Source: a virus. Taken from it: a stretch of DNA of 64,000 bases. Positions 1 through 20,600 of the stretch are shown here, one piece after another. The DNA lies in the IMG/VR virus record IMGVR_UViG_3300030419_003599, positions 1 through 64,000 of that record; one strand, 5' to 3'. The stretch's first letter is position 1; each line of letters opens with the position of its first letter. The notes beneath the pieces are model-generated. The model was not told the origin of the DNA. It ran no database searches and saw nothing but the letters and a program-made list of their open reading frames with translations. The translations under genes and the position numbers were made by a program.

Positions 1-3000
1 GGGTTTAGTTCAGAGTTCCAAGACATCCACACAGGCGAACCTATGGACCTCGCTTGGCGATTGCTCAAAGCACCACTTGACTTTGAATCTGTCCGTGATG
101 TAGGGGTTGTTGAAGAAGGGGGCTTTCCTTATCGGAGGTTTGAGGCTGATTTCATAGACCCTGAAACACAAGAACGGCTACCCGCCTTCGCTCGTCTGTC
201 CGATGATGGAGTGGGTGTAGGCCGTATTCAAGACCCTGACCCCGAATCTCTTCTAAGAAATAGGGCGTTCCACATGATACATCCTTATGGTGATAAAGGG
301 ATTTATCCATATTCTATCGGCACAGATAAAAACTTTAGAGGCCGAGGCTATCAAGAAGCCCTTTTGAATTTGATAATGCGTTTAGCCGAAGCAGAGGGAA
401 AAACATTCTACGAGCCACCTCAATCCTCCAAAACGGGTGATGGTAATATGTTCGCCCAAAGAATGCGTGAAAAATATGGTGATAAAGATGTTGAGGTAAT
501 AACGGGCGAACCAATGGACCTCTCTATGCGGTTGCTCAAAGGTAAGTTTGATTTAATACCAATGGAGGCTGCTAATGAATTATTGATGTTTCATGATGAC
601 CCTACAATCATAAGATGGCATAATGATAAATATGGATTAGGTTTGAGTGAAGAAGGTTTGTCCCAAGATGAAACGGATGAATTACTTAGTCATATAATAG
701 ATAGCGATACTGCATTTGAGCCTTCGGTCCCGGGTGGGATAAGTCATGCAGAAAATGTTGAACAATATGAAAAAGAGACAAGAAAACCCGCAAGACCTAT
801 GGGACTGAATATGCAATTAGGAGATGTTCCTGTCATTGACCCTACTAAGCCCGAAACTTGGAAAGACGGTCCCGGCACCACTTGGGTTGGGGGAAAACCT
901 ACAGTATCTCCGCAGATAACCCAACAACCATTTCCTTACGACTTTGATTACATTCACCAAGGCGAACCAATGGACCTCGTTTTCCGGTTGCTTAAAGCAC
1001 AACAAACACTCTATGCTTATGACCCTTCATTTATTGAAGAAGGCTTTCAACCCAATATTCAAAATGTAATTATTGCATCAAAGCCCGGTGCTAGAGATAT
1101 TAGTAACGAAGAGCAAAGTAAATTGCATGATGAGATGTTGAGGGATATTTCTGAATTAGATGGCTCTCATCGTATTAAGATAATAAGCGCTCGTGGGCGT
1201 AGTAATGAATGGGGTGACGAACATTCGTTTATGCTTACAAATGTCCCTGATGATATGATGCCCCATATTTTTTCATTGGCTGATAAATATGGTCAAGATT
1301 CTATATTACACTCACCAAAAGGAACAGCAGGAACACAATTTGTAGATAGTAGTGGTGAAGTAACTGGTGGTTTAGAAGAAGGTGGGTTTACTATAAAAAA
1401 GCCTGAAAACTATACTGAGTTTCCAACAGGGCAAAAATACGCATATGGTGATTATGTTACGGCGAGCGAACCAATGGACCTCGCTATGCGGTTGTTGAAA
1501 CTTGAATTAGCACCACCTATGACTCAAGGTGTTGAAGAGCAAGTACCAATGCAAGAAGATATACCTATGGTTGAAACTATGGATGAAGATGACTGTTGTG
1601 AAAAAGTTCGCGCATTTATTATTCAACAAAACCCGAATGTGCATGAATCTATTATTGAAAGGATTCGGAATATGCCGTGTGAAGAACTTCAATCTAATTT
1701 GAATTACAATGCAGTAGCAAACTTGGTTGGTTGCGGTGGCTTTAGCGAAGCGGACCAAATGAAATACGCAGGCGAGCCGATGGACATCGCTATGCGGTTG
1801 CTCAAAGAGGCTCGCCCTCATGCTCTCATACCTAATTTTGATTTACGACACATGCTTAATCCTAAATCTGATATACAAGAGCAATTGATAAGGCAACATG
1901 TTCCTCATGCTCTTTCCAATGCTGAATCAGCAACAGAAGTTTACAATCAACTTTTAGAAGAAGCCAAAATAAGAGAAGAAGAAACCGATTACTTCCCTTT
2001 ACCTCAAACTCAAATTGAAGATTACGGAGAGCAACACCCGCCTATTTTTCGTTACAACGCTACAAATGCGGTAACATATAGACCCGACTTTCAAGATATT
2101 CACACAGGCGAACCAATGGAAATCGCTATGCGGCTGCTCAAAGAAGAGGTTGATGACGAGGCTTTCAAACGGTCTGCTTACGGTTTAATGGATGAGGGAT
2201 GGGCTGACCATTTACCCGAAGATTTTGACCATGAAGGTTTTGATGCAGAAAACTACAATGAAATTATTGATAGAGAATATCCCACGGGTCAAAGTGGATA
2301 TAGCCCCGGAATAAAAGAATTACGAAGGTCGCTATACAACCGTTATGAAAGCCCCGAAGAAAATGAAAAGCGTTTTCGTGACTTAATGGATAACCCTACT
2401 CGTGAACCTATACTTGTCGTTAGAGATAAGAATGGAGAAGAGCATATTATTGCCGGCCATCATAGAATGGCGGCGAACATTGAGTCCAACAGACCACATC
2501 TTCCCGCTTTGATATTGGATATGGACAAGGATATTCAAACAGGCGAACCAATGGACATCGCTATGCGCTTCCTTAAGGCCCCATTTTACGAATACAGTAT
2601 GCCGACTTCCCAAATCACAGAAAACATTGTGCCTTTCGCCGAAGCAATGAATGAAGGGGAGGAGGATTGGCAATATATCCAGCCTAGAGCCCCAGATGCC
2701 CGAGCCCGAGAGCATTTGGCAGAACAAATGAAAGAGAGGAATATTGCTCAAACATCCCCTGCCTTGGGTCAGCCCATAATCCCCGGTGATGAGGACACTT
2801 TACATATCGGAAATCTCATTGCTGAATTGATGATGCGAGAAAATCCTGAAATCTTAGACCAATTGCCTCCCGGTGCTCGGGCCTCAATGCATTGGGGCAA
2901 TTTCCCAAAACCGAATATCATTTATCCATCAGAGCATTCCAAACAGCGAGTCCCATACCCCATGAAAGACTTGCATAGCGTCTTTTATCAGATACCGGGC

Positions 3001-3618
3001 GGAAAAGTATCACCCATTACAATACAGCCCACTCCCCCTTTCAGAGTGACCGAGCCCACTCAATTCATTCCTGCTGGTTCATTAGCAGAATGGCAGAAGG
3101 AGATGTTTGATGCTAGAAATCTGGAGCACGGACTGGAAACTCCAGCCCTGAGAGATTTACACTATCAGAGGCCCGAATTGGTGGAGGTGGCTGCTGCTGC
3201 ACCTGCTGCTCCGGCGGGAGCACTAGTCGCAACGGGCACAAGAGTACCTCCCGGATTGGAACACTTATTCAAAATCCCGCAGCAGGGACGCAGGGCAGGG
3301 CGGATAGTTTTTGCTGGCCCTCAGAGAGCCAGAAAATGGGCCAGCCCAGAGACAGGTTTTCCACACCAACTAAAGACGGTGAGTGAGTCTATGGCGAATA
3401 TGCAGCCAGAGCAGGCCAAGGCGTTCTACAGTGCACTATTACAGGCATGGATGGACAAAGGTATCTCCTTGGACGATTTGACAGGATACACTGGGAGAGG
3501 AGGACGGGACATGTCGGGGGTATCAGGATGGGAGGACGCTATTGCTGGACTCAAGAAGAAGAGTGAACCTATAGATATCGCTATGCAATTACTCAAAGTT
3601 GAACTTATGCGCAAATAA
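1..3618 (+). CDS. Multi-module 'polyvalent-like' protein with eight EPM tags (5' end outside window)
   Basis: The reading frame is open from base 1, so the gene starts upstream; the ATG at 43 lies inside the first tag and is probably not the true start. Eight copies of a 12-residue tag (GEPMDLAMRLLK type) divide it into modules. The module at about 70-504 has a GNAT-like motif A (FRGRGYQEALL). The module at 997-1464 resembles DUF3293 (KPGAR...SNEEQ, then an E-x-S-F strand and a YGQ motif). The module at 2143-2541 has a ParB-like core (PILVVRD followed by AGHHRMAAN). The others are unrecognised; the last (2578-3561) has an Ala/Pro-rich linker. The final tag sits at the extreme C-terminus. The architecture resembles phage polyvalent proteins, which combine several effector domains in one chain and are thought to enter the host with DNA. 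Domain calls are from motifs by eye; the function of the whole is inference. Confidence 0.75.
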   Translation, partial: GFSSEFQDIHTGEPMDLAWRLLKAPLDFESVRDVGVVEEGGFPYRRFEADFIDPETQERLPAFARLSDDGVGVGRIQDPDPESLLRNRAFHMIHPYGDKGIYPYSIGTDKNFRGRGYQEALLNLIMRLAEAEGKTFYEPPQSSKTGDGNMFAQRMREKYGDKDVEVITGEPMDLSMRLLKGKFDLIPMEAANELLMFHDDPTIIRWHNDKYGLGLSEEGLSQDETDELLSHIIDSDTAFEPSVPGGISHAENVEQYEKETRKPARPMGLNMQLGDVPVIDPTKPETWKDGPGTTWVGGKPTVSPQITQQPFPYDFDYIHQGEPMDLVFRLLKAQQTLYAYDPSFIEEGFQPNIQNVIIASKPGARDISNEEQSKLHDEMLRDISELDGSHRIKIISARGRSNEWGDEHSFMLTNVPDDMMPHIFSLADKYGQDSILHSPKGTAGTQFVDSSGEVTGGLEEGGFTIKKPENYTEFPTGQKYAYGDYVTASEPMDLAMRLLKLELAPPMTQGVEEQVPMQEDIPMVETMDEDDCCEKVRAFIIQQNPNVHESIIERIRNMPCEELQSNLNYNAVANLVGCGGFSEADQMKYAGEPMDIAMRLLKEARPHALIPNFDLRHMLNPKSDIQEQLIRQHVPHALSNAESATEVYNQLLEEAKIREEETDYFPLPQTQIEDYGEQHPPIFRYNATNAVTYRPDFQDIHTGEPMEIAMRLLKEEVDDEAFKRSAYGLMDEGWADHLPEDFDHEGFDAENYNEIIDREYPTGQSGYSPGIKELRRSLYNRYESPEENEKRFRDLMDNPTREPILVVRDKNGEEHIIAGHHRMAANIESNRPHLPALILDMDKDIQTGEPMDIAMRFLKAPFYEYSMPTSQITENIVPFAEAMNEGEEDWQYIQPRAPDARAREHLAEQMKERNIAQTSPALGQPIIPGDEDTLHIGNLIAELMMRENPEILDQLPPGARASMHWGNFPKPNIIYPSEHSKQRVPYPMKDLHSVFYQIPGGKVSPITIQPTPPFRVTEPTQFIPAGSLAEWQKEMFDARNLEHGLETPALRDLHYQRPELVEVAAAAPAAPAGALVATGTRVPPGLEHLFKIPQQGRRAGRIVFAGPQRARKWASPETGFPHQLKTVSESMANMQPEQAKAFYSALLQAWMDKGISLDDLTGYTGRGGRDMSGVSGWEDAIAGLKKKSEPIDIAMQLLKVELMRK
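34..3597 (+). repeat. Eight interspersed copies of the EPM peptide tag
   Basis: Tag copies lie at 34-69, 505-540, 961-996, 1465-1500, 1771-1806, 2107-2142, 2542-2577 and 3562-3597. Peptides are GEPMDLAWRLLK, GEPMDLSMRLLK, GEPMDLVFRLLK, SEPMDLAMRLLK, GEPMDIAMRLLK, GEPMEIAMRLLK, GEPMDIAMRFLK and SEPIDIAMQLLK. Spacing is irregular (102 to 340 residues), so this is not a tandem repeat but a delimiter between unrelated modules. Conserved hydrophobic positions (M, L/I, A, M/W/F, L, L) with D and R/K between them suggest an amphipathic helix. Confidence 0.9.
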
Positions 3619-3703: not shown

Positions 3704-3735
3704 GGTCAAGGGGAAGCATTGCCCTCTTATGAGGC

Positions 3736-5259: not shown

Positions 5260-5667
5260 ATGCCTGTAAGCGTGATGGCCATGGAAGAAGCATGGAATGC
5301 GCTAGTCATTCGTAAAGCCATTCGCAAGCAACATGAAGACGAAGACGAAATTGACCCTGTAGAATTGGGCGATTATGGTCTTTATGATACAGAAGCCGAG
5401 CAACCTGAAGATGAAGACGAGCGTGAGACCCCTTGGTTAGAGGAAGAACCTATCCATGATTTGCATCACGCCCCACCTTGGATAGGTAGAGATACTTATG
5501 TCCCATTAGAGAATCTTGAAGAGTCCGCCCCACATCAATTACCTAGCGGTGCCGGTGCTACTACACCTGCTGGCGGCAAAGTCGCAGTTGAGCCTAGACG
5601 CCAAGAAAAGGCTGGGGATGAAGACGATGAAGATGCAGGTGCCCCAGCATCTCTCCCTAAGCCTTGA
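5260..5667 (+). CDS. Acidic protein with N-terminal tag-like helix (135 aa)
   Basis: Starts at ATG 5260 behind GAGGTG. The first residues, MPVSVMAMEEAWNALV, resemble the N-terminal form of the EPM tag seen in the genes at 10069 (MSPLDAAWTILK) and 17928 (MKPIDSAWAILK). The rest is strongly acidic and Pro-rich with EDED and DEDDEDAG runs, so probably disordered. No catalytic motif is seen. The tag-like start suggests it is one of the virus-specific tagged proteins, perhaps virion-associated; this is inference. The 3' end overlaps a minus-strand membrane-protein gene by 11 bases. Confidence 0.65.
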   Translation: MPVSVMAMEEAWNALVIRKAIRKQHEDEDEIDPVELGDYGLYDTEAEQPEDEDERETPWLEEEPIHDLHHAPPWIGRDTYVPLENLEESAPHQLPSGAGATTPAGGKVAVEPRRQEKAGDEDDEDAGAPASLPKP

Positions 5668-5806
5668 ACTTATCATCTGAAGGCCGCTCTTTGGGCTTTT
5701 GTCTAATTATTAGTTCATCTTCTATAGGATAGAGCATGCCAAATAAAGCCCCGAATAGAAATGCCCCTACCCAAAGTGCAGCATGGATGACGAGAGAGTA
5801 GTCCAT
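5657..5806 (-). CDS. Small membrane protein coupled to the GNAT gene (49 aa)
   Basis: Minus-strand frame starting at ATG 5806-5804, overlapping the stop of the upstream GNAT-tag gene as TAATG. It encodes MDYSLVIHAALWVGAFLFGA and continues through one transmembrane helix (about residues 5-25), then a charged tail rich in Lys, Glu and Asp. The exact stop-start overlap argues for a real, translationally coupled gene. Function unknown. Confidence 0.65.
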   Translation of the reverse strand: MDYSLVIHAALWVGAFLFGALFGMLYPIEDELIIRQKPKERPSDDKFKA

Positions 5807-7251
5807 TAACGGACCCCTACTGATTTTAGGGTCCCTCTCTCTTTGAAATGTCTTGCTCGGTTGGCATGAGGGTCTTCTTCAACAAGTGTATGCTGACGAG
5901 TATGAGAAATATCAGGGCCGCCTCGTCCATATATACCGCGTTTGCGCCTCTCCCGATTGAGGTCTTCTCGGTATTTGACCCTTTTAGGATTTGATTCATA
6001 CTCAGTATCGTATTCTACTTTATGTCGTAAAGCCTCTGGACTTGTGGCGTGTTTGAGAAGCCTAAAAGCAAGGTCCATTGGTTCGCTAGCCAAATGGTAA
6101 TCTGGGTCATAGTCCCAATCAGTAGGTTCATTGATTTGCTCTGTCGGCTTTTCTGGTTTTGGTCGTACATCTTCCCAGTAAGGGAGGCTTGCCGAAGGGA
6201 CCGGCCTGTTGGGATTCGGATACGGGTTTGGCGTCAATCTGGTTTGTCCTCGTGCGTGCTTCCACGGTTCTTTCCCAAGTTGGGGGGGAGTTAATGGGGG
6301 TTGTTTTAATTCCTCAGATATATGTTCGCTCCATGGTACAGTAGTAATATCAGGGCGTAATGAGCCCCATTTTTCAGGGAGATGGAAATGACTTATTGTA
6401 TCAAATAATGTGTCACCCTCTTCCTCACCTAATTCCATATTATGTAAAGGGCCGAGTTCTGCAAAATGAGGGATTTTACCTAATTTACGGCCCGCTGCAC
6501 TACGCAGCCCTTTCGGTATTAACTTCATGGCTCTTGCTGCTAACCCCTGACCTTTGTCTGTGCGCGCTGAACTCATAAGTGCCCCTTCTCTACCAAGTAT
6601 TTGTTGTCCTAATAATGTCCCTAACCCTTGGCCTTCATAGCGAGGGTCAATTTGAATATAACTGACATGGGGACCCGCCATACTAGCGCGACCTATTGGT
6701 ATCATGCCTTTAGGGGCGTATGCTTCTTCATGAGGCAACAAACCTGTGTCTGGGTCGTAGAATCTTCCAGATGCATTTAGACTAGAAGGCGTATAATCCC
6801 CGCGATAAAAAGAGCCCCCCCATGATTCGCTTGGGCTTACTGCTCCTTTTGGAGCCCAAAGGGCATATTGTTTCTCCCCAAATAAATCGGACAATATACC
6901 CTTCATGTATTCATCTCTCACATCAACATCATCATCATCTTCCAATTCATCCCAATTATCGTGATACCAATCATATATTCGTTTTAATTTTGATGTAGAA
7001 GGGTCTCTTGTCGTCAAATCATTAGAGAGGTTGTAGTAATCGGCGAGGGCATTCCATTGGGGTCGCTGTGTAATTAAAGATGTAAGATGGAAATCGCTCG
7101 GTTTTAAGCCTAAGAGGCGCTTTTTATTATCTTGCGGAGAGCCAGTATCTGGTTTTTCTACTGCATCGCCTAGCGGTTTGGGCATGGCTCCCCAATCACT
7201 AAGAGTGGTCTGCCGTGCCTTCAAAAAAGACCACGATTTATCTATGCCCAT
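5806..7251 (-). CDS. GNAT-domain protein carrying an EPM tag (481 aa)
   Basis: The central region (about residues 185-265) reads as a GNAT acetyltransferase: a strand VSYIQID followed by the acetyl-CoA loop RYEGQGLGTLLG (about 204-215) and a helix ending in LAARAMKL. The N-terminus, MGIDKSWSFLK, resembles the N-terminal tag form. A full tag, SEPMDLAFRLLK, lies at residues 389-400 (bases 6087-6052), followed by a basic tail of about 80 residues. Residues 100-110 are acidic (DELEDDDDVDV). The start is supported by GGTGAGG seven bases upstream, buried in a hairpin (7259-7278). It is the only large minus-strand gene here, and the acetyl acceptor is unknown. GNAT call fairly sure; role inferred. 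Confidence 0.75.
   Translation of the reverse strand: MGIDKSWSFLKARQTTLSDWGAMPKPLGDAVEKPDTGSPQDNKKRLLGLKPSDFHLTSLITQRPQWNALADYYNLSNDLTTRDPSTSKLKRIYDWYHDNWDELEDDDDVDVRDEYMKGILSDLFGEKQYALWAPKGAVSPSESWGGSFYRGDYTPSSLNASGRFYDPDTGLLPHEEAYAPKGMIPIGRASMAGPHVSYIQIDPRYEGQGLGTLLGQQILGREGALMSSARTDKGQGLAARAMKLIPKGLRSAAGRKLGKIPHFAELGPLHNMELGEEEGDTLFDTISHFHLPEKWGSLRPDITTVPWSEHISEELKQPPLTPPQLGKEPWKHARGQTRLTPNPYPNPNRPVPSASLPYWEDVRPKPEKPTEQINEPTDWDYDPDYHLASEPMDLAFRLLKHATSPEALRHKVEYDTEYESNPKRVKYREDLNRERRKRGIYGRGGPDISHTRQHTLVEEDPHANRARHFKERGTLKSVGVR
6052..6087 (-). repeat. EPM tag in the GNAT protein (SEPMDLAFRLLK)
   Basis: Exact tag peptide between the GNAT region and a basic C-terminal tail, on the opposite strand to the other copies. 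This shows the tag is selected at the protein level and is not a strand-specific DNA element. Confidence 0.9.
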
Positions 7252-7258
7252 GGCCCTG

Positions 7259-7278
7259 CCTCACCCCTACGGGTGAGG
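7259..7278 (-). promoter_or_regulatory. Hairpin enclosing the ribosome-binding site of the GNAT-tag gene
   Basis: In the minus-strand transcript CCTCACCC and GGGTGAGG pair perfectly (8 bp, loop GTAG). The 3' arm contains the GGTGAGG ribosome-binding site, seven bases before ATG 7251. The stem would hide the site. As DNA it is also a palindrome in the divergent gap 7252-7339 and could be an operator. Confidence 0.55.
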
Positions 7279-7339: not shown

Positions 7340-8494
7340 ATGCCCTCCGTTTTAGTGGAGCCTCCTATTGAAAAGGCAGCGCCTCTCGCTCTCGCCCCTA
7401 TTGCTGCAGGCACTGCTGCTACTGCTGGTGGTGTGGGTTTGGGCGCAAGAGCATTGGGTGCCATAGGAAGGTTATTCGGAAAAAAGCCGAAAGCGCCTAA
7501 AGCGCCTAAAGCGCCTGCTTCATTGCCTGCTAGTTCTAAAACAGCAATCAAACGCCCTACCCCAGTCGGTCATGTACCCGAGCCCCCTTCCCCAATAAAA
7601 CCAATAGCGCACTCTGACCCTTTTCAACATACACTAGATGTCATGCCTAAGCAACCGGGCGTACATACTGGTGCAGGCACAACAGTTACGCAAGAGGCTC
7701 TGGATATAGGAGGTCATACTGGTGCAGGCACAACAGTTACGCAAGAGGCTCTGGATATGAATATGGCGAAACCAGAGGTAAATCCTGTAGTGAGTGGTTT
7801 CAAAAGTGGGGCAGGGCAAGCGCTTGGATATGGTGCGCTAGGGGGCGCAATGACAGGAGGAGGAGGAGGCCAAAATCCTGCAATCCAAACTGCCCAACAG
7901 AGTGCTGCACAACAACAGCAGCACAATATGGATATGCAACAACAGGCTACTCAAGCCGCTGGTACTACTGCTGGGACTCAACCCGGTGTTGCATATGGTG
8001 ATACAGCCAAAAGTCTTGATAATTGGAAATTACTCCAAGAAGCAGATGCTCTTCGTAGCGGTGGAGACCCTTCTACTGCTAATCGTTTTGTGGCTGTGTC
8101 CAGAGCATTACAAAAACCGCAAGAGATTCGTAATAAGTTTATCCAAGATTATGGGCACCGAGCAGCCGAATTGCTTGGCGAAAAGGAACCAGAGTGGAGA
8201 GAGGCAGAGCATCTTTATGAGCAAGGCAAACAAAGTGCTGATTATAGAGATATGAGACAATCTCCGAGTGAATACGATGCTGAACAGCGTAACCAGTTTT
8301 TTGCTATGATGAGAAGATTAGGCATAGGTAAAGAAAGAGAACTGGCCGCTCAACAACGAGCAGAAGAGATGTTATCGCAACTAAGGCAAGATGACCCTTC
8401 TCAATATTTTTCCGATTTACCATTTAGAGTAGAAGGCTCAAATAATCCTATGGATTTAGGGCAAGAATGGCAAGAACTGCTTAAGCCAGAATGA
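7340..8494 (+). CDS. Ala/Gln-rich protein with C-terminal tag variant (384 aa)
   Basis: ATG 7340 is preferred over TTG 7337. The N-terminus is Ala/Gly/Pro-rich and hydrophobic (residues about 12-35), followed by KAPKAPKAPA repeats. A 51-base tandem duplication gives two copies of HTGAGTTVTQEALD. The middle is Gln-rich (QQSAAQQQQHNMDMQQQ) and the C-terminal third is helical and charged. The protein ends in NNPMDLGQEWQELLKPE, a stretched form of the tag (PMDL...W..LLK). The composition suits a scaffold or internal virion protein, but no family is recognised. First gene of the plus-strand cluster to 12572, divergent from the GNAT gene. Confidence 0.65.
   Translation: MPSVLVEPPIEKAAPLALAPIAAGTAATAGGVGLGARALGAIGRLFGKKPKAPKAPKAPASLPASSKTAIKRPTPVGHVPEPPSPIKPIAHSDPFQHTLDVMPKQPGVHTGAGTTVTQEALDIGGHTGAGTTVTQEALDMNMAKPEVNPVVSGFKSGAGQALGYGALGGAMTGGGGGQNPAIQTAQQSAAQQQQHNMDMQQQATQAAGTTAGTQPGVAYGDTAKSLDNWKLLQEADALRSGGDPSTANRFVAVSRALQKPQEIRNKFIQDYGHRAAELLGEKEPEWREAEHLYEQGKQSADYRDMRQSPSEYDAEQRNQFFAMMRRLGIGKERELAAQQRAEEMLSQLRQDDPSQYFSDLPFRVEGSNNPMDLGQEWQELLKPE
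7664..7758 (+). repeat. Tandem duplication, 51-base period, two copies
   Basis: Copies start at 7664 and 7715 and are identical over 44 bases, encoding HTGAGTTVTQEALD twice. Near-perfect identity suggests a recent duplication. Confidence 0.9.
8441..8485 (+). repeat. C-terminal tag variant (NNPMDLGQEWQELLK)
   Basis: Extended form of the EPM tag two codons before the stop, with three extra residues between PMDL and the W..LLK half. Weaker match than the EPM copies. Confidence 0.5.
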
Positions 8495-8543
8495 AGATAT
8501 AGAATGGTAAAGTTTAATTTGCCCTCTCGTGTGGCCTCATAAC

Positions 8544-9092: not shown

Positions 9093-9101
9093 GGACTCTA
9101 T

Positions 9102-9347
9102 ATGGGACGCATCTTCAAAACACCAAGTGATAATGCAGTTGAAGAGACATTAAGAGCGATGCATACCCAAAATGTATTGGATAATACTTATGAAAAAACT
9201 GTGGGTTGGGTTAAAGTCTTACTACTAGGCACTGTAGCAGTATTCACTCTTTCCGCTGTTGAGTATTATACTGACTGGAACTTATGGGAATCTACAGGGA
9301 ACTGGCTATCTGAATGGGCCGAGCGCCAATTGGAAAAGTTGATTTGA
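9102..9347 (+). CDS. Small single-pass membrane protein (81 aa)
   Basis: GAGGA lies eight bases before ATG 9102. Residues about 37-55 (VKVLLLGTVAVFTLSAVEYY) form one transmembrane helix between a polar N-terminal half and a Trp-rich amphipathic tail (WNLWESTGNWLSEWAERQL). The stop directly abuts the ATG of the GTPase gene, so the two are probably co-translated. Function unknown; a partner of the GTPase is a reasonable guess. Confidence 0.65.
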   Translation: MGRIFKTPSDNAVEETLRAMHTQNVLDNTYEKTVGWVKVLLLGTVAVFTLSAVEYYTDWNLWESTGNWLSEWAERQLEKLI

Positions 9348-10068: not shown

Positions 10069-10104
10069 ATGAGCCCGCTTGACGCCGCTTGGACAATTTT
10101 GAAA
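10069..10104 (+). repeat. N-terminal tag variant (MSPLDAAWTILK)
   Basis: N-terminal form of the tag: start Met, then S-P-L-D-A-A-W-x-I-L-K. P, hydrophobic, D, A, W, L and K positions align with EPMDLAWRLLK. Confidence 0.65.
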
Positions 10105-13558: not shown

Positions 13559-13974
13559 AAGGCGTCCATGTCCCAATGAATATTTTATTGGCTTATGGCA
13601 CTCCATTCACCCATTTGTTACATGGGTCTGGCGCATTAGAAGATGATGAAATTGGTCCATTTTATGATGGAGTCCATGAATGTGTAAGCCGTTGGCTCCA
13701 TTATCTCAATCAACAGGTAGAGAATCCTCAAATGCAATCTTTCTATACACCAGTTGAGAATCTTCGCTCAGATTTGCTAGACCTTATTCATGAAGATGGT
13801 TGGGATACTTTTGAAATTAGAGATAGAGCGCGCCATGCTCTTATTGAGTTTGAACATATTTGTTCGGATATGGCTCGCTCTTTTACTCATCCACCTAGAG
13901 TGAAAGAGTTTTATCACAATCTTGCCAGCAGAAGTCGTGCTACGCTTGAGCGATTAGTGGAAGGTGAAGTATAA
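13555..13974 (+). CDS. Hypothetical helical protein (139 aa)
   Basis: ATG overlaps the previous stop (ATGA), and GAGGTGATTG lies upstream. The protein is mainly helical with scattered acidic and aromatic residues (FYDGVHECVSRWLHYLNQQ; DLIHEDGWDTFEIRDRARHA) and has no recognised motif. It is coupled to the candidate small terminase upstream and the tagged protein downstream (ATAATG overlap), so it probably belongs to the head or packaging module. No specific function can be assigned. Confidence 0.6.
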   Translation: MKGVHVPMNILLAYGTPFTHLLHGSGALEDDEIGPFYDGVHECVSRWLHYLNQQVENPQMQSFYTPVENLRSDLLDLIHEDGWDTFEIRDRARHALIEFEHICSDMARSFTHPPRVKEFYHNLASRSRATLERLVEGEV

Positions 13975-15830
13975 TGCCTAGCGGGACAGGAGGAATGGGG
14001 CGCGGGTCTGATACCCGAATGTATAGTCCTCGTTCAGAATCTACCCGAATGTTTGGTTATGAAGAGGATGATATTGGTCATGCTCATGGTTATGGTGACC
14101 CCGAACTTGCGGCGGAAAGCAGAGAAAAGAAGAAGCGAGAAAAAGAAGAAACCAAACAACGGCAAAAAATACATCATATCAAAATTAGACATAAAGATAT
14201 TCTTGATGAATTACCCCCTAGTATGGGTGAAGTTTCACAAGAAGGTGATAATGAACTTGCACCTAAAGATGAAGAGCAAGGCGAATTATCTGCTTTGACA
14301 GGTACTTCCGGTTCTCGCGGGGCCATGTTGGACCAAGCCATTGGTGCCAAAACTGGTACAGGTTCGGCGCTTGGTGGTACTCCGCCATTACTCGGTCCAA
14401 TGGGTGTGTATCATTCTGAGCCGATGGAGAACGCTTGGTCTGAGTTGTTGAAAAACAAGAAAGAACCTTTTACTCATTATGGCACCGATGGGCGTCCATT
14501 CAGACCAATAGCCACCCTTTTACAAGGTGATGTAGAGCCGGGTCAAGCGGGCTATATAGCAAACCGAGGTGATGAGACAGGGATACGGATACCCCATATT
14601 CCAGCAAAAGAACGCGCTGATTTTGATGACGAAGTTGAAGCGCACAGACAAGAAATGTATAGACAGGGGTTAGTAGATGACGATGAGGAGTTTGCTCTTT
14701 TGAACTCTTTAATAGACCAATTTTATGGTGCAGATAAGTCTCAATACCCAATAGAAGATGATTATGAAGTGCAGGTAGAACCTGTACTTGAAGATAGAAG
14801 TGAAACTGCTCAAATTGGCTCACCGATGGATTATACTCCCGATGAAATCTATGAGATGTTTAGAAACGGCGAGCCAATGGAGGTGGCTTGGTCTGAGTTG
14901 ATGAAATCTAAAAAAGATAAGGGCGAAGCGCCAATGGCTGCTGGCGAAATTGGTTCAGCGGGAACTACCACTCAACGCCGAAAAGAACATGCCAAAAAAT
15001 GGGCTCAACCTAAGTTCAAGGTCGCTCCCGGAGGGCGCAGACCTACTACAGCGACTTCCCGCCGAGCAAAAGCCCGTAGCCGAACTTTAGCACCTCGTCA
15101 TCGTGTTCATAATATCAAAGGCGGGCTAATGCAAAGTCCTTTGGCTGTGCATATGTCTCACCTTGGTGTCCAAACTAAACAACCTCTACGGCAATTCCCT
15201 GAAAAGTATAGGCAATATTACGGTCAGCAACTAAGGCGCCGTTTAACTGGTGATATTGCACAAACTGTAGCACCTCACGGGTTATTTGGTGAGCGCACTC
15301 AGAATCCCGGCCCTACTGGAGGAGGTCGTCTTCCGGGTCAATTGCCGGGACAAGCCGCTGCTGCTGGTATGCCATCTTTGCGTAGATTGGCTAGACCAAG
15401 AGTGCCCCGTTTGCGAAAACCTACTGGCTTTAGCCCTATGACTCCGCCTACTATCCCAACTGCCCCACCTCTCCCACAACCAGCCCAAGTAGGGTTGCCT
15501 TCTTCTAATATCCAAATGTCAGGAAAAGTAGGAGTAGGGTCCCCTCTCAAAAAGAATATTGATATTTTACGCCCCGGGACTTTTGCTTTCATGCATAGTC
15601 GGGAGATTGCTAAACTTTTGAGAGAATTGAAAGAGAAGTTAGAGCGGCATGGAAGGATGCGTAAAGGCAAGGGCACTGCTGATACTAGTGGTGCAGGAGA
15701 CGATAAACCCGATGCTCCAGCAAATGGGCCAAAGCAAACCAGCAAACTTGAAGGAGGAACCGAATCTAGTCCTGATGACGATGCAAGAAATTGGGGTATG
15801 GACCCTTCTGCTATTATAGGGAGTCATTGA
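13974..15830 (+). CDS. Tagged low-complexity protein (618 aa)
   Basis: The N-terminus is Gly/Ser/Arg-rich, then Lys/Glu-rich (KKKREKEETKQRQK). Two tag copies of the longer form, SEPMENAWSELLK (residues 148-160) and GEPMEVAWSELMK (299-311), bracket an acidic segment of about 140 residues. After the second tag comes a basic, Arg/Pro-rich region (RRPTTATSRRAKARSRTLAP) likely to bind nucleic acid, then a Pro-rich linker and a helical end. No catalytic motif is visible. The tags, basic charge and position before the terminase make an internal head or scaffold protein plausible; inference only. Confidence 0.65.
   Translation: MPSGTGGMGRGSDTRMYSPRSESTRMFGYEEDDIGHAHGYGDPELAAESREKKKREKEETKQRQKIHHIKIRHKDILDELPPSMGEVSQEGDNELAPKDEEQGELSALTGTSGSRGAMLDQAIGAKTGTGSALGGTPPLLGPMGVYHSEPMENAWSELLKNKKEPFTHYGTDGRPFRPIATLLQGDVEPGQAGYIANRGDETGIRIPHIPAKERADFDDEVEAHRQEMYRQGLVDDDEEFALLNSLIDQFYGADKSQYPIEDDYEVQVEPVLEDRSETAQIGSPMDYTPDEIYEMFRNGEPMEVAWSELMKSKKDKGEAPMAAGEIGSAGTTTQRRKEHAKKWAQPKFKVAPGGRRPTTATSRRAKARSRTLAPRHRVHNIKGGLMQSPLAVHMSHLGVQTKQPLRQFPEKYRQYYGQQLRRRLTGDIAQTVAPHGLFGERTQNPGPTGGGRLPGQLPGQAAAAGMPSLRRLARPRVPRLRKPTGFSPMTPPTIPTAPPLPQPAQVGLPSSNIQMSGKVGVGSPLKKNIDILRPGTFAFMHSREIAKLLRELKEKLERHGRMRKGKGTADTSGAGDDKPDAPANGPKQTSKLEGGTESSPDDDARNWGMDPSAIIGSH
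14415..14453 (+). repeat. EPM tag, AWSELLK form (SEPMENAWSELLK)
   Basis: Thirteen-residue tag with one extra residue between A-W and L-L-K, preceded by YH and followed by a Lys-rich stretch. Confidence 0.8.
14868..14906 (+). repeat. EPM tag, AWSELMK form (GEPMEVAWSELMK)
   Basis: Second tag of the same protein, 151 residues after the first, also followed by a Lys-rich stretch. Confidence 0.8.
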
Positions 15831-15831
15831 A

Positions 15832-17931
15832 ATGAGCCAAATCATTGTCCTTAACCCTACAGAGACTTTACTCAAGTCATTTTTCGCTAATGTAGTTGAG
15901 CCTTCAATTATTCTCAAAGGCGATGGTGTCCTTTACATGGGACCCGAGGGTAACAAAATGATGGGTTTCCCTCCCCAACATATGTTCAATATGGACCCAA
16001 ATCAACCAGACCACCCTATGTGGTCATGGAATCCTCATACTGGAGAACCTACCGAAGGTGGTATGCATCCGATTGATGGAGTAGTAGCCCATTTGCAGCA
16101 GTATCTTGATAAAATGGGTATTAGGGCAGATGCTCGTTCCATAGTTCAAGATTCAATTGACGCCTTTAATCGTAAGCATATGTCTGATAATCATCATTTA
16201 CCGGCATTTGATTCCCCTGAATGGCGTAAGTTAGTTATCGGCCCTCATCCTACTAATGTGCCGGGTCATGAAATAGCAACTCGCGGTCATGACGGTAAGT
16301 TATTTACTCATTATGGTAATCGTGGCGGCTCAATTGGTTTATTCCCTGAGAGCGGAGCAGTCCCATTTTTCAGCGAACTTAATGATATTCTCACAGATAT
16401 GGGTTTGCATCAAGCAGAGGGAGAATTGGAGTTCGCTAAATATCCCAATATATCAGCCCAGCATTTGTCCCCTAATGTTTATCGTACTAAAGCGAATGAA
16501 TTAGCGGCGCACGGTTTAGTGCCGGGGCATATTCTTGAACAACACGCCCCAGAAGGAATGATGTTTGATGGAGCGCATGGGGCGCGACATACTTGGGAAG
16601 TGATGCATCATTTACCAGCGGCTATGTTCATGGGTACAGGTTATGCGCCTAGAGCCAATAGTGCAACAGTGCGTGAAGCAGAAGGTAATATCGCCGCCGC
16701 TCTTCAAAATATAGACCCTAAACAAATACCAAATCATCCAATTACTCTCCATGATGGGACTAAAACTACCTTCGCCGAGGCTATATCTAATCCTGCTACT
16801 CGCAGTACTTTAATTCAAGATATGGCGCGCAGTCCTGCTTTACAATTCATGTTTGCTGGAGCGGGAAGCCCTGCCACACGAACTAAGACCCGCACAATTA
16901 TGGGGCCTCTTCTTGATGTAGAGGGTTTTGATGTTCACCGTGGTCATACTGATACTGGTACTAGAAAAAGAGGACGCAGCCCTCATTCTTATGCTGTAAA
17001 TGTCGCTGCCGCTGCCGCCGCTCATGGTCCATGGGAAGCAGACCCTACTCGTTCAGCAATGGCTGATAATTCGCATGGTTTACCTGAAGGTGTAGACCAC
17101 AATGAAATCGGCAGGCGTAGAGAAATTATTGAAGGCATGGGAGACATGATGGCTAGAGCCCATGGGCATACTGAACGATGGACTCCAGATTGGGATAATC
17201 TCCCCACTGATATGCCCGCATCTCGCGCAATTGGTAATTTAGGTCAAGTAATGCATCAAGAAGTGCCTGAACATTTCATTAATCGTTTCTATACAGACAT
17301 GAATGCCGCTCCTACAAGAGATATACCTATCCCGGGCATGGGTGCTGGTCCAACTGCTCAAAGAGAGCAAACCCCGCCTGAACCTTCTATACCTGAAGTT
17401 AGAACTCAACCAGCAGCACCTGCCGCTCCTGCCGCTCAACCAATAGCCCCCCGAATTGAGCCCCGGGGACTTACTCCTGAATTACAAGCCGCTCGTAGGC
17501 AGATAGGGGCGGCCCAAGGAGTAGAAGGGGTGAGGCAAACGGCTAGAGAAATGGGAATGCCACCGCTTCCTGAAAACCCGGCGCATGTGAGCCGCTTCCA
17601 GCATTCTTTCGGTGACCCACACCAAACTCTTCTTGACCAATGGATGCGCTCTAATGATTCTGTAGAAATGTTAGACCGCATTGAAAAGGCAATGGAAGAA
17701 CTACAACTCAAAGATGCCCAAAGAGATGTAGCAGTTTTGAAACACCTTCCTAATCGCCAAAATCTCAATATCAATATTGAAGGCGATGTTGCTTTAATGG
17801 CCAATAAATTGGGGCTCACTAAGCACGATATACGAAGTCTTGCCATTTCCAAAGGAGATTGGCACCGTGTGGCTGAAGTATTTGATGTCCCGGCGCCTGT
17901 TGTAGGGGCAGTAAAGGTGGTGTTCTCATGA
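15832..17931 (+). CDS. Large His/Met/Pro-rich protein of unknown function (699 aa)
   Basis: GGAG eight bases upstream supports ATG 15832. No known domain is recognised. It is rich in His, Met and Pro in the first 400 residues (for example HTWEVMHHLPAAMFMGTGY). An Ala/Pro linker (PAAPAAPAAQPIAP) precedes a helical C-terminal part (LDRIEKAMEELQLKDAQRD). A segment with HTGEPTEGGMHPIDGVVAHL loosely recalls the tag but is not counted. Composition resembles the N-terminal part of the 1,863-residue protein at 24969. It overlaps the next, double-tagged gene by 4 bases. A head-associated role is likely from position; details unknown. Confidence 0.6.
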   Translation: MSQIIVLNPTETLLKSFFANVVEPSIILKGDGVLYMGPEGNKMMGFPPQHMFNMDPNQPDHPMWSWNPHTGEPTEGGMHPIDGVVAHLQQYLDKMGIRADARSIVQDSIDAFNRKHMSDNHHLPAFDSPEWRKLVIGPHPTNVPGHEIATRGHDGKLFTHYGNRGGSIGLFPESGAVPFFSELNDILTDMGLHQAEGELEFAKYPNISAQHLSPNVYRTKANELAAHGLVPGHILEQHAPEGMMFDGAHGARHTWEVMHHLPAAMFMGTGYAPRANSATVREAEGNIAAALQNIDPKQIPNHPITLHDGTKTTFAEAISNPATRSTLIQDMARSPALQFMFAGAGSPATRTKTRTIMGPLLDVEGFDVHRGHTDTGTRKRGRSPHSYAVNVAAAAAAHGPWEADPTRSAMADNSHGLPEGVDHNEIGRRREIIEGMGDMMARAHGHTERWTPDWDNLPTDMPASRAIGNLGQVMHQEVPEHFINRFYTDMNAAPTRDIPIPGMGAGPTAQREQTPPEPSIPEVRTQPAAPAAPAAQPIAPRIEPRGLTPELQAARRQIGAAQGVEGVRQTAREMGMPPLPENPAHVSRFQHSFGDPHQTLLDQWMRSNDSVEMLDRIEKAMEELQLKDAQRDVAVLKHLPNRQNLNINIEGDVALMANKLGLTKHDIRSLAISKGDWHRVAEVFDVPAPVVGAVKVVFS

Positions 17932-17963
17932 AGCCAATAGATTCTGCTTGGGCGATTCTTAAG
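17928..17963 (+). repeat. N-terminal tag variant (MKPIDSAWAILK)
   Basis: Twelve residues from the start Met, aligned with MSPLDAAWTILK of the gene at 10069. Confidence 0.65.
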
Positions 17964-18815
17964 AATCCGGCTTTAGAAACAATGACACCTGCCGCTGTAG
18001 ATGCCGCAGGACCCGGTTTTTTCCTTGGACCACAAGGAATACAAGGGCAGAGTGGTCCTTTTATGTTCAATATGGGGGGTAGAGGGGCTAATCGCCCTAG
18101 TACAGCCAGACTCCTTCATGGTTTAGCCACAGGTCAAGCACCAAGAGGGACTAAGCGCGCACTTGCAGGAAGAGCGGCTGGGACTGGTTTAGGTCTGGTC
18201 AATGCTTTATTGGCTGCAGAAAGAGCACAGCGTGGTGGAGATATTGAAAGTGCTCTTGGTGCCGCTTATGCTGGCTATCAAGTACCTAAACAAAGTATTA
18301 CTGGTGCCGCAGAAGGGGAATGGAGCCATAAACCAATGTTGGATGCCCATGGGCGACCTATGCGAAAACCCAGATTAGATGAAGAAGGTAATCCAATATT
18401 AGACAAAACAGGGCGACCTATAATGGACCCAATGTTAGAGGAAGAACAAACACCCGGTGGCGCAATCGGAGGTCAGATGGAGGCCGCTCAACTTGGTCGT
18501 TCTTTTTACGATAATATAGTACAAGAAGAAGACCCTATTAATTTCCCTAGCGCTGCATCCGAATATGGCAACCTTCCTCCCCCTAAAGAAACATCTCTAC
18601 AAGCAGGGGTCCCAAATACAGCACCTACACTTGGTCAACTAAGAGCCTCAGCGACAGACACAATGCCACAAGGAGACCCTAATAGAATAACAAGTTGGAC
18701 AGGTACAGCAGTAGACCCAGCAGCGGACGCAACGCAGAATGTGGGGTTAGATGTATTCACAAACAGTGAACCGATGGACTTGGCTTTCCGTATGTTAAAG
18801 GGGGCTATGAGATGA
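17928..18815 (+). CDS. Double-tagged protein immediately before TerL (295 aa)
   Basis: Begins MKPIDSAWAILK (N-terminal tag form) and ends SEPMDLAFRMLK plus GAMR, so it has a tag at each end. Between them are Gly/Ala/Pro-rich segments and a repeated pattern (AHGRPMRKP, then TGRPIMDP). Its ATG overlaps the preceding stop (ATGA) and its stop overlaps the TerL ATG. No enzymatic motif is seen. A tag at both termini would suit a bridging or scaffold protein that contacts the same partner twice, or a carrier; inference. Confidence 0.65.
   Translation: MKPIDSAWAILKNPALETMTPAAVDAAGPGFFLGPQGIQGQSGPFMFNMGGRGANRPSTARLLHGLATGQAPRGTKRALAGRAAGTGLGLVNALLAAERAQRGGDIESALGAAYAGYQVPKQSITGAAEGEWSHKPMLDAHGRPMRKPRLDEEGNPILDKTGRPIMDPMLEEEQTPGGAIGGQMEAAQLGRSFYDNIVQEEDPINFPSAASEYGNLPPPKETSLQAGVPNTAPTLGQLRASATDTMPQGDPNRITSWTGTAVDPAADATQNVGLDVFTNSEPMDLAFRMLKGAMR
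18765..18800 (+). repeat. C-terminal EPM tag (SEPMDLAFRMLK)
   Basis: Tag five codons from the stop of the double-tagged protein. Confidence 0.85.
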
Positions 18816-20278
18816 GTGATGTTGAGAAACTCATTGAAGAAATGGACCGAGAAATGGCGGCCAAATCATTTGAGTTCTTTTTTACTGATATACTCGGGTA
18901 TGATTTCAATGACCATCACCGCGAGTGGGTAGATTGTTTGGACAATCACCGCTACTATGTAGTTAAAGCGGCTCGTGACCACGGTAAAAGCACTTTATTC
19001 ATGTCTTATGCTCTATGGATAGCGGCATTTAATCCCGGTACTCACATTATGATATTCAGTCACTCTCTTGAGCAGACTCTTGAGCATATGCGTATGATTC
19101 GTAGCCATATTGACGCTGAACCCATCCTACAATACCTCAAGCCACAAGGTATGCCATGGGCTAAATCCTACATGGAGTTCACAAACGGCAGCCGTTTGAT
19201 GGCTAAGTCGGTCGGCGGGGCAACTCGTGGTTTCCACCCTGATGTTGTAGTATGCGATGATATTCTTTGGGGTTCAACTGCTGGAGAGTTGGCTAGAACC
19301 GCTGATTGGTTTTATTCAGTTCTACTCCCTGTTCTTCACCACACTGGCCGTCTTATGATGGTAGGGACTCCATTTTCATATAATGACCTTTACACTGAAT
19401 TAGAATCCAAAGATGCTTTTGAAGTTGGAACTTTTCCTGCTATGGATTCTGATGGTATAGCATTATGGCCTAACCGTTGGGATGAAGAAGCACTAATGCA
19501 AAGGCGTATGTCAATGCCTGCTATCCAATTCGCCCGTGAGTATCTCTGTGAGCCTATTCACGATGTAGCAAGTATGTTTCCAATGGATATTTTGGAACAG
19601 GCGCGTGATGAAAATCTACGATTACTTGACCGGGCCGAAAGTGAATATGATGAAGAAGGTGAAAATATCGGCGTTTTTGGGCAACACTTTGTCGGTTGGG
19701 ACCCTGCTATTGCTTCTGATAAAAATGCAGACTATACAGCCATAGTAACAATGCGGACATTAGATGACGGCATTAAACAAGTAGTCCATGCCATCCACGA
19801 AAAGGGTTTGAACTCCGAAGCACAGAAACGCCATATCATTTTACTCAATAGTCGTTTCCAACCTGACCTTATTGAATTAGAAGGCAATAATTTTCAAAGA
19901 ATGTTTGAGACCGAATTGAGAGGTATGGATATACCAATTCGTACTTTTATGACAACTAGAGCACGAAAAGAGAGTTTATTCATGTCTCTTCTTCTCGCTT
20001 TTGAGCAGGGGCAAATTAGAACACCTTATGGGGATGAGAAGAGCAAAATATTTACTCATAAATTAGAGACTGAATTGAATAGATTTGGTATGACTAAACA
20101 AGGTAAGTTAGAGAGCGTGGGTGTGCATGACGACCTTGCTATGGGGCTTGCGTTAGCCAATTGGGCTACTAAAGAGTTCAAGGGCTCTGTTGTGATGTTA
20201 GATGATTTTCTTCCCGGGTTTGGGGAATGGGTCCAAGAAGAATTAGGTGGAGGAAGCCACCCATGGTATGTGATGTAA
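18812..20278 (+). CDS. terL: Terminase large subunit (DNA-packaging ATPase/nuclease)
   Basis: Packages DNA into the prohead through the portal and cuts it. Walker A ARDHGKST (residues 54-61), Walker B VVVCDD (145-150) and a coupling motif MMVGTPFSYND (about 182-192) mark the ATPase. The RNase H-like nuclease shows GWDPAIASDKNADYTAIV (about 294-311), an acidic ELEGNN segment, and VHDDLAMG near the C-terminus (about 437). Length 488 is normal. ATG overlaps the previous stop. All key residues are present, so it should be active. Flanked by the double-tagged protein and a tagged zinc protein. Confidence 0.95.
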   Translation: MSDVEKLIEEMDREMAAKSFEFFFTDILGYDFNDHHREWVDCLDNHRYYVVKAARDHGKSTLFMSYALWIAAFNPGTHIMIFSHSLEQTLEHMRMIRSHIDAEPILQYLKPQGMPWAKSYMEFTNGSRLMAKSVGGATRGFHPDVVVCDDILWGSTAGELARTADWFYSVLLPVLHHTGRLMMVGTPFSYNDLYTELESKDAFEVGTFPAMDSDGIALWPNRWDEEALMQRRMSMPAIQFAREYLCEPIHDVASMFPMDILEQARDENLRLLDRAESEYDEEGENIGVFGQHFVGWDPAIASDKNADYTAIVTMRTLDDGIKQVVHAIHEKGLNSEAQKRHIILLNSRFQPDLIELEGNNFQRMFETELRGMDIPIRTFMTTRARKESLFMSLLLAFEQGQIRTPYGDEKSKIFTHKLETELNRFGMTKQGKLESVGVHDDLAMGLALANWATKEFKGSVVMLDDFLPGFGEWVQEELGGGSHPWYVM

Positions 20279-20279
20279 G

Positions 20280-20600
20280 ATGACTGATGCCTTAACTTGC
20301 CATTATTGCGGCCAGCGATTTAACCACCCAATGCAGCGTTTGATTCACGAAGAGCGAATGCATGAGGGCGGAGGAGGCTCCGAGAAAGACGCTATGTTCC
20401 AGACAGGTGAGCCTATGAATCTCGCTTGGCGTTTATTGAAAGAAAAAGAAGATGCCCCTAATTATCGTTGCCCGGCTGATGACCCGAAACAAAGTTGCGG
20501 GACTTGTAAGCATTGGGTCAAAAAAAGTGATGAAATAGGCACTTGTTCCCTCTTTAATTTCCAGTGCAATGCCAAATGCACTTGCGATGCTTGGAGTTGA
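20280..20600 (+). CDS. C2H2 zinc finger, EPM tag and Cys cluster in one small protein (106 aa)
   Basis: Starts one base after the TerL stop. Residues 7-28 form a classical C2H2 finger (C7, C10, H23, H28). The tag GEPMNLAWRLLK is at 43-54. The C-terminus holds seven Cys in the order C-x8-C-x2-C, then TCSLFNFQCNAKCTCDAW, a pattern seen in small zinc or iron-sulfur proteins of tailed viruses. The finger and the Cys cluster may contact DNA or the packaging motor, with the tag as the link to a common partner. Function inferred from layout only. Confidence 0.75.
   Translation: MTDALTCHYCGQRFNHPMQRLIHEERMHEGGGGSEKDAMFQTGEPMNLAWRLLKEKEDAPNYRCPADDPKQSCGTCKHWVKKSDEIGTCSLFNFQCNAKCTCDAWS
20406..20441 (+). 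repeat. EPM tag between two metal-binding modules (GEPMNLAWRLLK)
   Basis: Tag with Asn at the usual Asp/Glu position, between the C2H2 finger and the Cys cluster. Confidence 0.9.

Follow-up and report, generated by a model that had tools for sequence, protein, structure and literature searches.

A recurrent short peptide on unrelated late proteins of magroviruses, and its possible role as a virion address tag

The locus described here raises the question why one short peptide should recur in proteins that are otherwise unrelated. We analyzed the first 64,000 nucleotides (the window) of the IMG/VR record IMGVR_UViG_3300030419_003599, a magrovirus-type record of 108,650 bases. Magroviruses are viruses of marine Poseidoniales archaea, which are abundant in the ocean.

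The tag and its copies

A six-frame scan of the window for [GS]EP[MI][DEN]x[ASVG] reproduced the 13 peptides in five genes that had been listed in a preliminary description: eight in the gene at 1-3618, one in 5806-7251 (minus strand), two in 13974-15830, and one each in 17928-18815 and 20280-20600. Within-protein shuffles of 29 proteins from the first 33 kb of the window (2000 rounds) contained on average 0.02 tags and at most 1, which rules out the possibility that the observed 13 reflect chance or composition. The internal and C-terminal tags have the form [GS]EPMDIAMRLLK, to which the N-terminal form MxPFDxAWxLLK is related. Of the further terminal forms claimed earlier, those at 10069 and 17928 are real, whereas inspection by eye showed those at 7251 and 5260 to be weaker variants and the one at 8441 to be degenerate. 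The tagged features of the window are as follows, with the terminase large subunit (TerL) as reference for position and strand.

1..3618, plus: multi-module tagged polyprotein, open at the record start
34..69, plus: tag GEPMDLAWRLLK (scan)
505..540, plus: tag GEPMDLSMRLLK (scan)
961..996, plus: tag GEPMDLVFRLLK (scan)
997..1464, plus: cargo module of the DUF3293 / SAM-lyase family with a SAM-lyase-like predicted fold (profile, fold)
1465..1500, plus: tag SEPMDLAMRLLK (scan)
1771..1806, plus: tag GEPMDIAMRLLK (scan)
2107..2142, plus: tag GEPMEIAMRLLK (scan)
2542..2577, plus: tag GEPMDIAMRFLK (scan)
3562..3597, plus: C-terminal tag SEPIDIAMQLLK (scan)
5260..5319, plus: weak N-terminal tag-like start MAMEEAWNALVIRK / MEEAWNALVIRK (by eye)
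5806..7251, minus: tagged gene with the weaker N-terminal variant MGIDKSWSFLK (variant by eye)
5809..6048, minus: phrog_6437 module
6052..6087, minus: tag SEPMDLAFRLLK (scan)
8441..8491, plus: degenerate C-terminal form NPMDLGQEWQELLK / NNPMDLGQEWQELLKPE (by eye)
10069..10104, plus: N-terminal tag MSPLDAAWTILK
14415..14453, plus: tag, long form SEPMENAWSELLK (scan)
14868..14906, plus: tag, long form GEPMEVAWSELMK (scan)
17928..17963, plus: N-terminal tag MKPIDSAWAILK
18765..18800, plus: C-terminal tag SEPMDLAFRMLK, directly before TerL (scan)
18812..20278, plus: TerL
20406..20441, plus: tag GEPMNLAWRLLK (scan) between C2H2-like and Cys-rich parts (by eye)

The 5' part of the polyprotein is probably located at the opposite end of the record: positions 100,001-108,650 (L004) contain three additional tags in an array of this kind, and a further gene there is tagged at its N-terminus. 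The tag at 1465..1500, together with the residues that follow it, recurs at that end.

Across the collected records, 234 tag sites were found in 161 ORFs (50 N-terminal, 167 internal and 17 C-terminal), although these counts are not independent since several contigs are near-duplicates (e.g. L031/L059/L074). The N-terminal form occurs in 113 distinct proteins belonging to 59 clusters, and 314 segments fall into 145 clusters. The spread over at least eight unrelated proteins that was originally proposed is thereby far exceeded.

Such a pattern might be produced by a DNA repeat, selfish or promoting recombination, whose translation is incidental. Both forms of the tag indeed share codons, TTG for the first Leu and CTC for the second dominating in a manner unlike the window background, and several copies in the polyprotein are near-identical in DNA. 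However, 171 of the 175 near-consensus sites of the internal type are in register in a frame of at least 60 open codons, with the other four still reading as tags, and the same register is kept at 98 of 100 sites of the N-terminal type. The former number shows that selection acts on the peptide, as had been suggested from the window. Furthermore, 168 tags comprise 141 DNA variants but 63 peptides, and a start codon opens the N-terminal forms; for 79 of 111 of them, the frame extends upstream by no more than 15 open codons. Because no copies of the tag were found outside genes or out of frame, a DNA repeat as the sole explanation is largely refuted, and we regard it as highly improbable. Copying by recombination is the likely route by which the tag spreads.

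Distribution among viruses and position in the genome

The strict DNA pattern of the tag was present in 82 viral contig stretches, and cellular genomes totalling 257 Gb gave a single match, a result that holds for the strict internal pattern only and for however many Poseidoniales genomes the set contains. The cellular site sits in an 85-codon frame and was judged to be a chance occurrence; as far as this strict pattern goes, the tag was rejected as a host motif. Random occurrence in cellular proteins, named at the outset as grounds for refuting the proposed tag, is not what this one strict pattern returned. Among the 74 records with tags, 60 could be shown to be magroviruses and 55 encode a relative of the MCP of the window. 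We considered a second group of tag-using viruses without this MCP, but the five records read among the 19 that lack it (one minus its last 1.7 kb) all carry magrovirus polymerase- and thermosome-like genes and are magrovirus fragments. The tag is nearly restricted to magroviruses. Reading 43 kb and 47 kb of the genomes of HCTV-1 and HVTV-1, the nearest named relatives by MCP, revealed no tags. The number of tags varies between records: the strict internal pattern was found in none of 20 long records selected by MCP, and looser forms were seen by eye in seven of the nine of these that were read. Of 80 MCP loci covered to a distance of about 10 kb, none has the internal form and 15 have the N-terminal form.

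In Magrovirales, the replication and virion genes form two blocks of opposite direction (PMC10768690). PolB was encoded on the strand opposite to TerL in all 20 records with a PolB match, including that of the window. Magrovirales also have a family B polymerase, clamp, clamp loader and HMG-CoA lyase of their own; as candidates for these, a PF00682 HMGL-like match was obtained and ORFs were judged by eye to be PolB-, PCNA- and RFC-like, such ORFs being seen again in relatives. In 21 long records, 108 of 111 tag sites lie on the TerL (late) strand and 95 of 111 lie at most 30 kb upstream of TerL, as measured in circular distances. No tags were found in 40 kb of the replication block that were sampled (L002, L003). 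The tag is not strictly tied to head genes, because 13 of 106 sites are closer to PolB than to TerL and some follow the MCP gene or lie at the end of the tail block.

This distribution bears on the possibility that the tag docks late proteins outside the head, on a membrane or virus-factory platform, the tail or a host factor. GTPase-like and membrane-protein-like ORFs, their nature judged by eye, are conserved in the tag-bearing block, tags occur near tail genes as well, and QTTLxxF/Y, a stretch resembling a PCNA-binding box, stands behind many of them. On the other hand, the replication block sampled is free of tags, the sites are on the late strand, and the LLK that closes the tag is like the sites in the MCP and the protease described below. 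We consider docking outside the head to be improbable.

The modules behind the tags

Tags precede many unrelated modules, among which are an alarmone hydrolase and modules with the predicted fold of an ADP-ribosyltransferase or a SAM lyase. One and the same module can be found either behind a stand-alone N-terminal tag or fused behind an internal one. Thus, the module behind the tag at 2107..2142 is 92% identical in L021, where it directly follows an N-terminal tag, and that behind 505..540 has a 90% identical copy in L007 behind SEPMSIAMQLLK. The phrog_6437 module is N-tagged on its own in L007 and untagged in two cyanophage proteins that were read; at 47 loci selected by this module the tag is directly ahead in 13 (by regular expression) plus 3 (by eye), most having other linkers.

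Family profile and fold predict that 997..1464 of the window is a SAM lyase. All seven members of its cluster match the DUF3293 and SAM lyase models with E-values of 0.1 or less, the window member scoring just above the cut-off for DUF3293 and below that of the SAM lyase model itself. The best fold match is 7ock (E 3.5e-4, model pLDDT 65.5), and a sequence search of the PDB gave no match for this module, which was found there by fold only. The chain between tags in the window combines the SAM-lyase/DUF3293 match with a ParB-like phrog_4715 match (E 5e-4). For one N-tagged cluster the model predicts an ADP-ribosyltransferase fold: VIA Z values were 9.8-11.1 for the best 14 rows, 13 of which are Tpt1/KptA, while the model has a pLDDT of 65.0, the best Foldseek E-value was only 0.18, and Pfam ART-PolyVal stayed below its cut-off. 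A scan of viral contigs recovered the alarmone hydrolase at only two loci, one of which is that of the query. HExxH motifs occur in 26 of 251 tagged proteins versus 5.6, and GNAT- and HD-type motifs were not clearly above shuffles (70 vs 51 and 10 vs 4.4, respectively). Matches of tagged proteins to known families were few, and no Pfam family matched more than 4 of the 69 scanned. Neither a profile built from 54 of the N-tagged proteins, which number 113, nor one ParB-like protein found a match in the PDB.

These modules overlap in domain kinds (ART, ParB-like, RelA/SpoT and metallopeptidase) with the polyvalent proteins of Iyer et al. (2017), multi-module proteins predicted to be injected with the viral DNA (PMC5512222). 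Polyvalent proteins are not known to have an address peptide in common, whereas many kinds of magrovirus module share the tag, which is also found on single-module genes.

The closing motif and the proposed function

Motifs resembling the end of the tag are present in the head genes of the window.

30579..31961, plus: S78 prohead protease, its C-terminal part a putative scaffold
30651..30659, plus: LLK directly before the S78 domain
31107..31115, plus: ILK at the end of the S78 domain
32060..32068, plus: LLK in the N-terminal arm of the MCP

All 84 proteases compared have phi-phi-K, which is a short motif, ahead of the S78 domain and I[LIV]K behind it. In each of 80 close relatives the N-arm of the MCP contains [LI]LK[AS]D[AS]P, an invariance that means little because the MCPs compared are 76-90% identical overall; the MCPs of HCTV-1 and HVTV-1 retain only x-S-K-A-D. 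At the sequence level, the closing LLK of the tag resembles both the S78 domain-end sites and the MCP N-arm site. The residue at +1 is E, A, R or M in tags versus A, S, G, E or Q at the MCP and protease sites. Pro is absent from +1 after the tag (0 of 283) and present at +2 in 41 of 283 cases; this exclusion suggests cleavage behind the tag, but could alternatively reflect continuation of the helix. Met directly follows the N-terminal tag in 16 of 113 proteins (p 3e-6). Glu-specific cleavage at the GE-P bond is unlikely because the N-terminal form lacks that Glu and because Pro follows. The capsid protein of HK97 is cleaved after Lys in its N-arm. Magroviruses are similar in having an S78-family protease and possible cleavage after Lys in the MCP N-arm, with the difference that their cleavage sites are deduced from conservation only.

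Could the tag then have no targeting role and be only a processing site between modules of late polyproteins, at which the maturation protease or one of the host cuts? Tags do separate modules, their LLK is like the protease and MCP sites, Pro is excluded at +1, and at junctions without a tag, the sequence ahead of the phrog_6437 module frequently closes with phi-x-K as well (by eye). A separator would nevertheless be pointless at the extreme N-terminus of single-module proteins and near C-termini, where 17 of the 234 sites lie. Moreover, the conserved positions (P, phi, [DE], A and an aromatic residue) exceed what a cut site needs, though the invariance within the tag is partly by construction since the collecting regular expressions fix some positions. 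A mere processing site thus seems unlikely to us.

Of the functions considered, that of a cargo tag is the best supported, by the late strand, the single virus group, the effector-like nature of some cargo, and the protease- and MCP-like end motif. We think it probable that the tag serves as a modular address peptide by which unrelated late proteins reach the virion, in the manner of the T4 capsid targeting sequence (CTS). The comparison with T4 made in the preliminary description holds up, one short peptide being common to unrelated proteins. In T4, internal proteins that otherwise differ share the CTS, an interchangeable label of about 10 residues. The head protease, which recognizes one short motif in its substrates, shell, core and internal proteins among them, cuts this label (PMC9026906). 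Both peptides would be short cargo labels on differing proteins. The CTS, however, is N-terminal with a protease site ending in Glu, whereas the magrovirus tag may be N-terminal, internal or C-terminal, ends in Lys, is found on more than 100 module clusters and has a putative role in packaging. In phage P1, the giant effector DarB reaches the head by means of an N-terminal signal that is also effective when attached to a reporter (PMC9024508), and the protease Pro cuts the N-termini of both DarA and the MCP (PMC12810830). The Dar N-termini have no consensus by BLAST (PMC9024508), whereas that of the magrovirus tag is explicit and repeated.

For virion loading, docking partner, cleavage, delivery and the direction of gene fusion we infer the following course. 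As a short helix, P-phi-[DE]-x-A-[WMF]-x-L would attach the protein to the procapsid interior, where either the capsid protein or the putative scaffold of the protease would receive it; the amphipathicity of the helix is moderate, being reached by 4-17% of shuffles for five of six tag peptides and by 0.8% for the sixth. The S78 maturation protease would cut behind the closing Lys (L-L-K | [EARSGMNQD]), and the freed effectors, which may include ADP-ribosyltransferase-like, alarmone hydrolase, SAM-lyase-like, ParB-like, GNAT-like and HExxH proteins, would pass to the next host along with the DNA. New cargo could be recruited by placing a tag ahead of a gene, and fusion of neighbouring tagged genes would turn N-terminal tags into the internal separators of multi-effector polyproteins. 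More tentatively, and with less confidence than we have in an address function as such, the 12 residues may constitute a plug-in code of a whole order of abundant marine archaeal viruses that serves as both address and scissile label. Any gene behind it would then yield virion cargo that is injected after the maturation protease has released it at a site like that of the capsid protein, and homology between tag DNAs would allow cargo cassettes to be swapped and fused.

If the tag is an address for virion cargo, it would provide an annotation rule for many late magrovirus proteins that are at present unknowns, and proteins injected by an uncultured archaeal virus would become findable by sequence search. 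It would also represent a short plug-in signal for loading proteins into an archaeal capsid, and the principle of labelled internal proteins seen in T4 and P1 would be found in archaea too, with much greater modularity.

Tags in the window and selection on the peptide

The tag is a short peptide with two related forms, one internal or C-terminal ([GS]EPMDIAMRLLK) and one N-terminal (MxPFDxAWxLLK). All 13 tags that the preliminary description had reported in the window were confirmed in their places, as follows.

Tags in the window
ORF 1-3618, open-ended: eight tags
Minus-strand gene: one tag
13974-15830: two tags
17928-18815: one tag, C-terminal
20280-20600: one tag, internal

The window covers bases 1-64000 of a viral record 108,650 bases long. 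When residues were shuffled within each of 29 proteins encoded in its first 33 kb (2000 rounds), chance tags had a mean of 0.02 and a maximum of 1, and a wider second tag pattern found 15 sites in these proteins compared to 0.007 in shuffles. An ORF with one N-terminal and two internal tags runs off the opposite end of the record; because its final residues repeat a stretch at window position 1465, the repeat array is probably where the assembly broke. Tags were absent from the 40 kb examined of the replication block.

The claim that the peptide itself is selected was borne out. Among 175 sites of near-consensus DNA of the internal type (at most 9 mismatches), 171 are in register with an open frame of at least 60 codons, and the remaining four, whose frames are short or truncated, still encode tag peptides; N-terminal-type sites are in register with an open frame of at least 60 codons in 98 of 100 cases. 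Shuffled consensus sequences (ten per consensus, at most 8 mismatches) had no matches in 120 loci. Moreover, 168 tags comprise 63 peptides versus 141 DNA variants. Both forms mostly use TTG for the first Leu and CTC for the second, a choice that differs from the window background (difference between the two Leu sites, p 2e-29 and 2e-18). Since this choice is shared, we infer that one form descends from the other by copying.

Stretches of QTTL or QTEL followed by F, Y or W lie directly behind many tags (the 7219-7251 region of the window; comparison loci L215, L223, L243 and others). They are PCNA-box-like; a PCNA-like ORF is present in the genome as well. Another N-terminal motif, approximately M..[VI][LA]V.K[AS] (e.g. 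MKPVLVIKA, MGKILVKKS), was seen in 15 of 948 ORFs of tag loci L005-L086, where 1.4 would be expected, although several of these matches are loose or resemble the tag. It likewise closes with Lys and then a small residue.

The virus and the distribution of the tag

The closest named relatives of the window's capsid protein (MCP) are those of haloarchaeal HCTV-1 and HVTV-1 (about 33%). The record encodes an S78-family prohead protease, terminase, portal and HMGL-like protein, and its replication and virion blocks run in opposite directions; this gene set and block layout fit what the ICTV gives for magroviruses (order Magrovirales; PMC10768690). PolB-, PCNA-, RFC- and thermosome-like ORFs were named by eye. 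In the records G010 and G014 the PolB match falls into two adjoining pieces, one covering residues 2-445 and the other, which contains one TGA, residues 447-799; the ICTV legend includes PolB-NTD/CTD (PMC10768690). Other features of the window are a GTPase-like ORF at 9348 (GxxxxGKT and NKAD by eye; 60-81% identity in those relatives read whose sequence spans this ORF; nothing matched in Pfam), which follows the membrane-bound-looking ORFs 8529 and 9102 in 8529-10064; a 1863-residue late protein (24969-30560) whose C-terminal part is DNA-ligase/nucleotidyltransferase-core-like, below Pfam cut-offs; and, in the tail block, one ORF of 5526 codons (44413-60993), parts of which are ~38-50% matched in relatives.

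The strict internal pattern matched 82 viral contig stretches. The check on whether the motif occurs at random in cellular DNA, run with this pattern, did not refute the tag reading, with one site in a 257 Gb genome collection, inside an 85-codon frame (chance expectation for the larger set about 0.5, estimated by hand). An MCP relative is encoded in 55 of 74 tag records (36/49 and 19/25 in two batches), and all five that were read of the other 19 have PolB- and thermosome-like genes of the magrovirus group. The N-terminal pattern matched at least 119 stretches, with MCP present in 23 of 35 records searched, which were taken from the longer ones among the matches listed. Within 10 kb on each side of MCP, in the best 80 of at least 597 relatives, the internal form was found at 0 and the N-terminal form at 15 loci. 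Among the 26 long records selected through their MCP, six had already been known to carry tags; the strict internal pattern matched none of the other 20. Looser forms were seen by eye in seven of nine of these that were read fully, and the two without a tag both lack the region upstream of TerL, the terminase large subunit. These near-MCP counts and MCP-selected records count against uniform occurrence of the tag.

A wider pattern, applied to 21 records that carry tags and are 80-116 kb long, matched 111 sites, and its reversed control none. The TerL strand carries 108 of the 111, and 95 are at most 30 kb upstream of TerL (distances assume circular permutation), usually in a cassette region 9-20 kb upstream; in some records tags also stand immediately before TerL, and a few sites lie downstream. 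PolB is on the strand opposite to TerL in 20/20 records with a PolB match, and is closer than TerL for 13 of 106 sites.

Putative cargo modules and gain or loss of the tag

Cutting 161 tagged ORFs at their tags gave 314 segments. These formed 145 clusters, of which 104 were singletons, and 113 N-tagged proteins without their tag fell into 59 clusters. Among 69 of 142 non-redundant tagged proteins, the top Pfam family matched no more than four and most modules had no family match, while phrog_6437 was matched by 21; in a scan of 54 of the 113 N-tagged proteins, no Pfam family had more than one member (best DUF6321 and HD_4). Recognisable modules include an alarmone hydrolase of the RelA/SpoT type (E 3e-13 against RelA), an untagged homologue of which, from a phage, bears the annotation metal-dependent phosphohydrolase; a predicted Tpt1-like ADP-ribosyltransferase fold (Z 11.1; Foldseek alone weak); the window's own DUF3293/SAM lyase module (7/7 members match, predicted fold agrees); and GNAT, SLOG and DnaJ-type zinc families, with single or few matches. 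In 251 tagged proteins, HExxH (26 vs 5.6 in shuffles), [YF]HGT (25 vs 0.5), paired CxxC (34 vs 0.15) and a GxHR-type motif (12 vs 1.9) were in excess, whereas GNAT-type (70 vs 51) and HD-type (10 vs 4.4) motifs showed no clear excess. The domain kinds listed for polyvalent proteins (PMC5512222) overlap those of the tagged modules.

The module at residues 714-847 of ORF 1-3618, preceded there by GEPMEIAMRLLK, is 92% identical in locus L021, where it follows the protein-start tag MKPFDIAWRLLK. Likewise, two modules are separated by an internal tag in L250, the second standing alone behind an N-terminal tag in L227 and L244. The phrog_6437 module is alone and N-tagged in L007, and untagged in two cyanophage proteins read (29 records matched). 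Met follows the tag directly in 16 of 113 N-tagged proteins versus 3.6% background, as if the tag had been inserted ahead of a former start. In 47 loci picked by the phrog_6437 module, independently of the tag, a tag directly precedes it in 13 by regex and in three more by eye (L323, L327, L356); the others have none directly in front, L346 being cut. The tag is therefore a discrete element that can be gained and lost and is not obligatory for each module.

No description of the tag was found in the literature searched, many subscription papers being outside reach; the text of PMC10160649 contains neither 'motif' nor 'repeat', and a term look-up in PMC8651126 likewise gave no tag description. 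The tag may already be present, unrecognised, in the phage family library as phrog_9713. This 23-residue PHROG of unknown function weakly matches the whole window polyprotein (E 1.1e-5), no single stretch of which passes, and 2 of the 69 proteins.

The maturation protease and the end of the tag

Among 84 sequences of the S78 protease, of which 62 are distinct and one is that of the window, phi-phi-K followed by G, S or A lies ahead of the S78 domain in 84/84 (chance expectation about 0.14 for each stretch of 16 residues). Behind the domain, F[RK]I[LIV]K-[EQ] is present in 84/84. The MCP N-arm carries [LI]LK[AS]D[AS]P in 80/80 proteins, themselves 76-90% identical overall to the window's, and SKAD is kept at this position in the HCTV-1 and HVTV-1 MCPs. 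LLK is also the ending of the tag. The HK97 protease cleaves after a Lys. The first residue after the closing Lys is E, A, R, M, S, G, N, Q or D in 263 of 283 tags and Pro in none; Pro is second in 41. We read the tag end as a putative scissile site, on the model of T4 gp21, for which one short motif serves for its substrates (PMC9026906). The likeliest reading, held with moderate confidence, is that the tag is a putative virion-cargo address peptide with probable cleavage at maturation.
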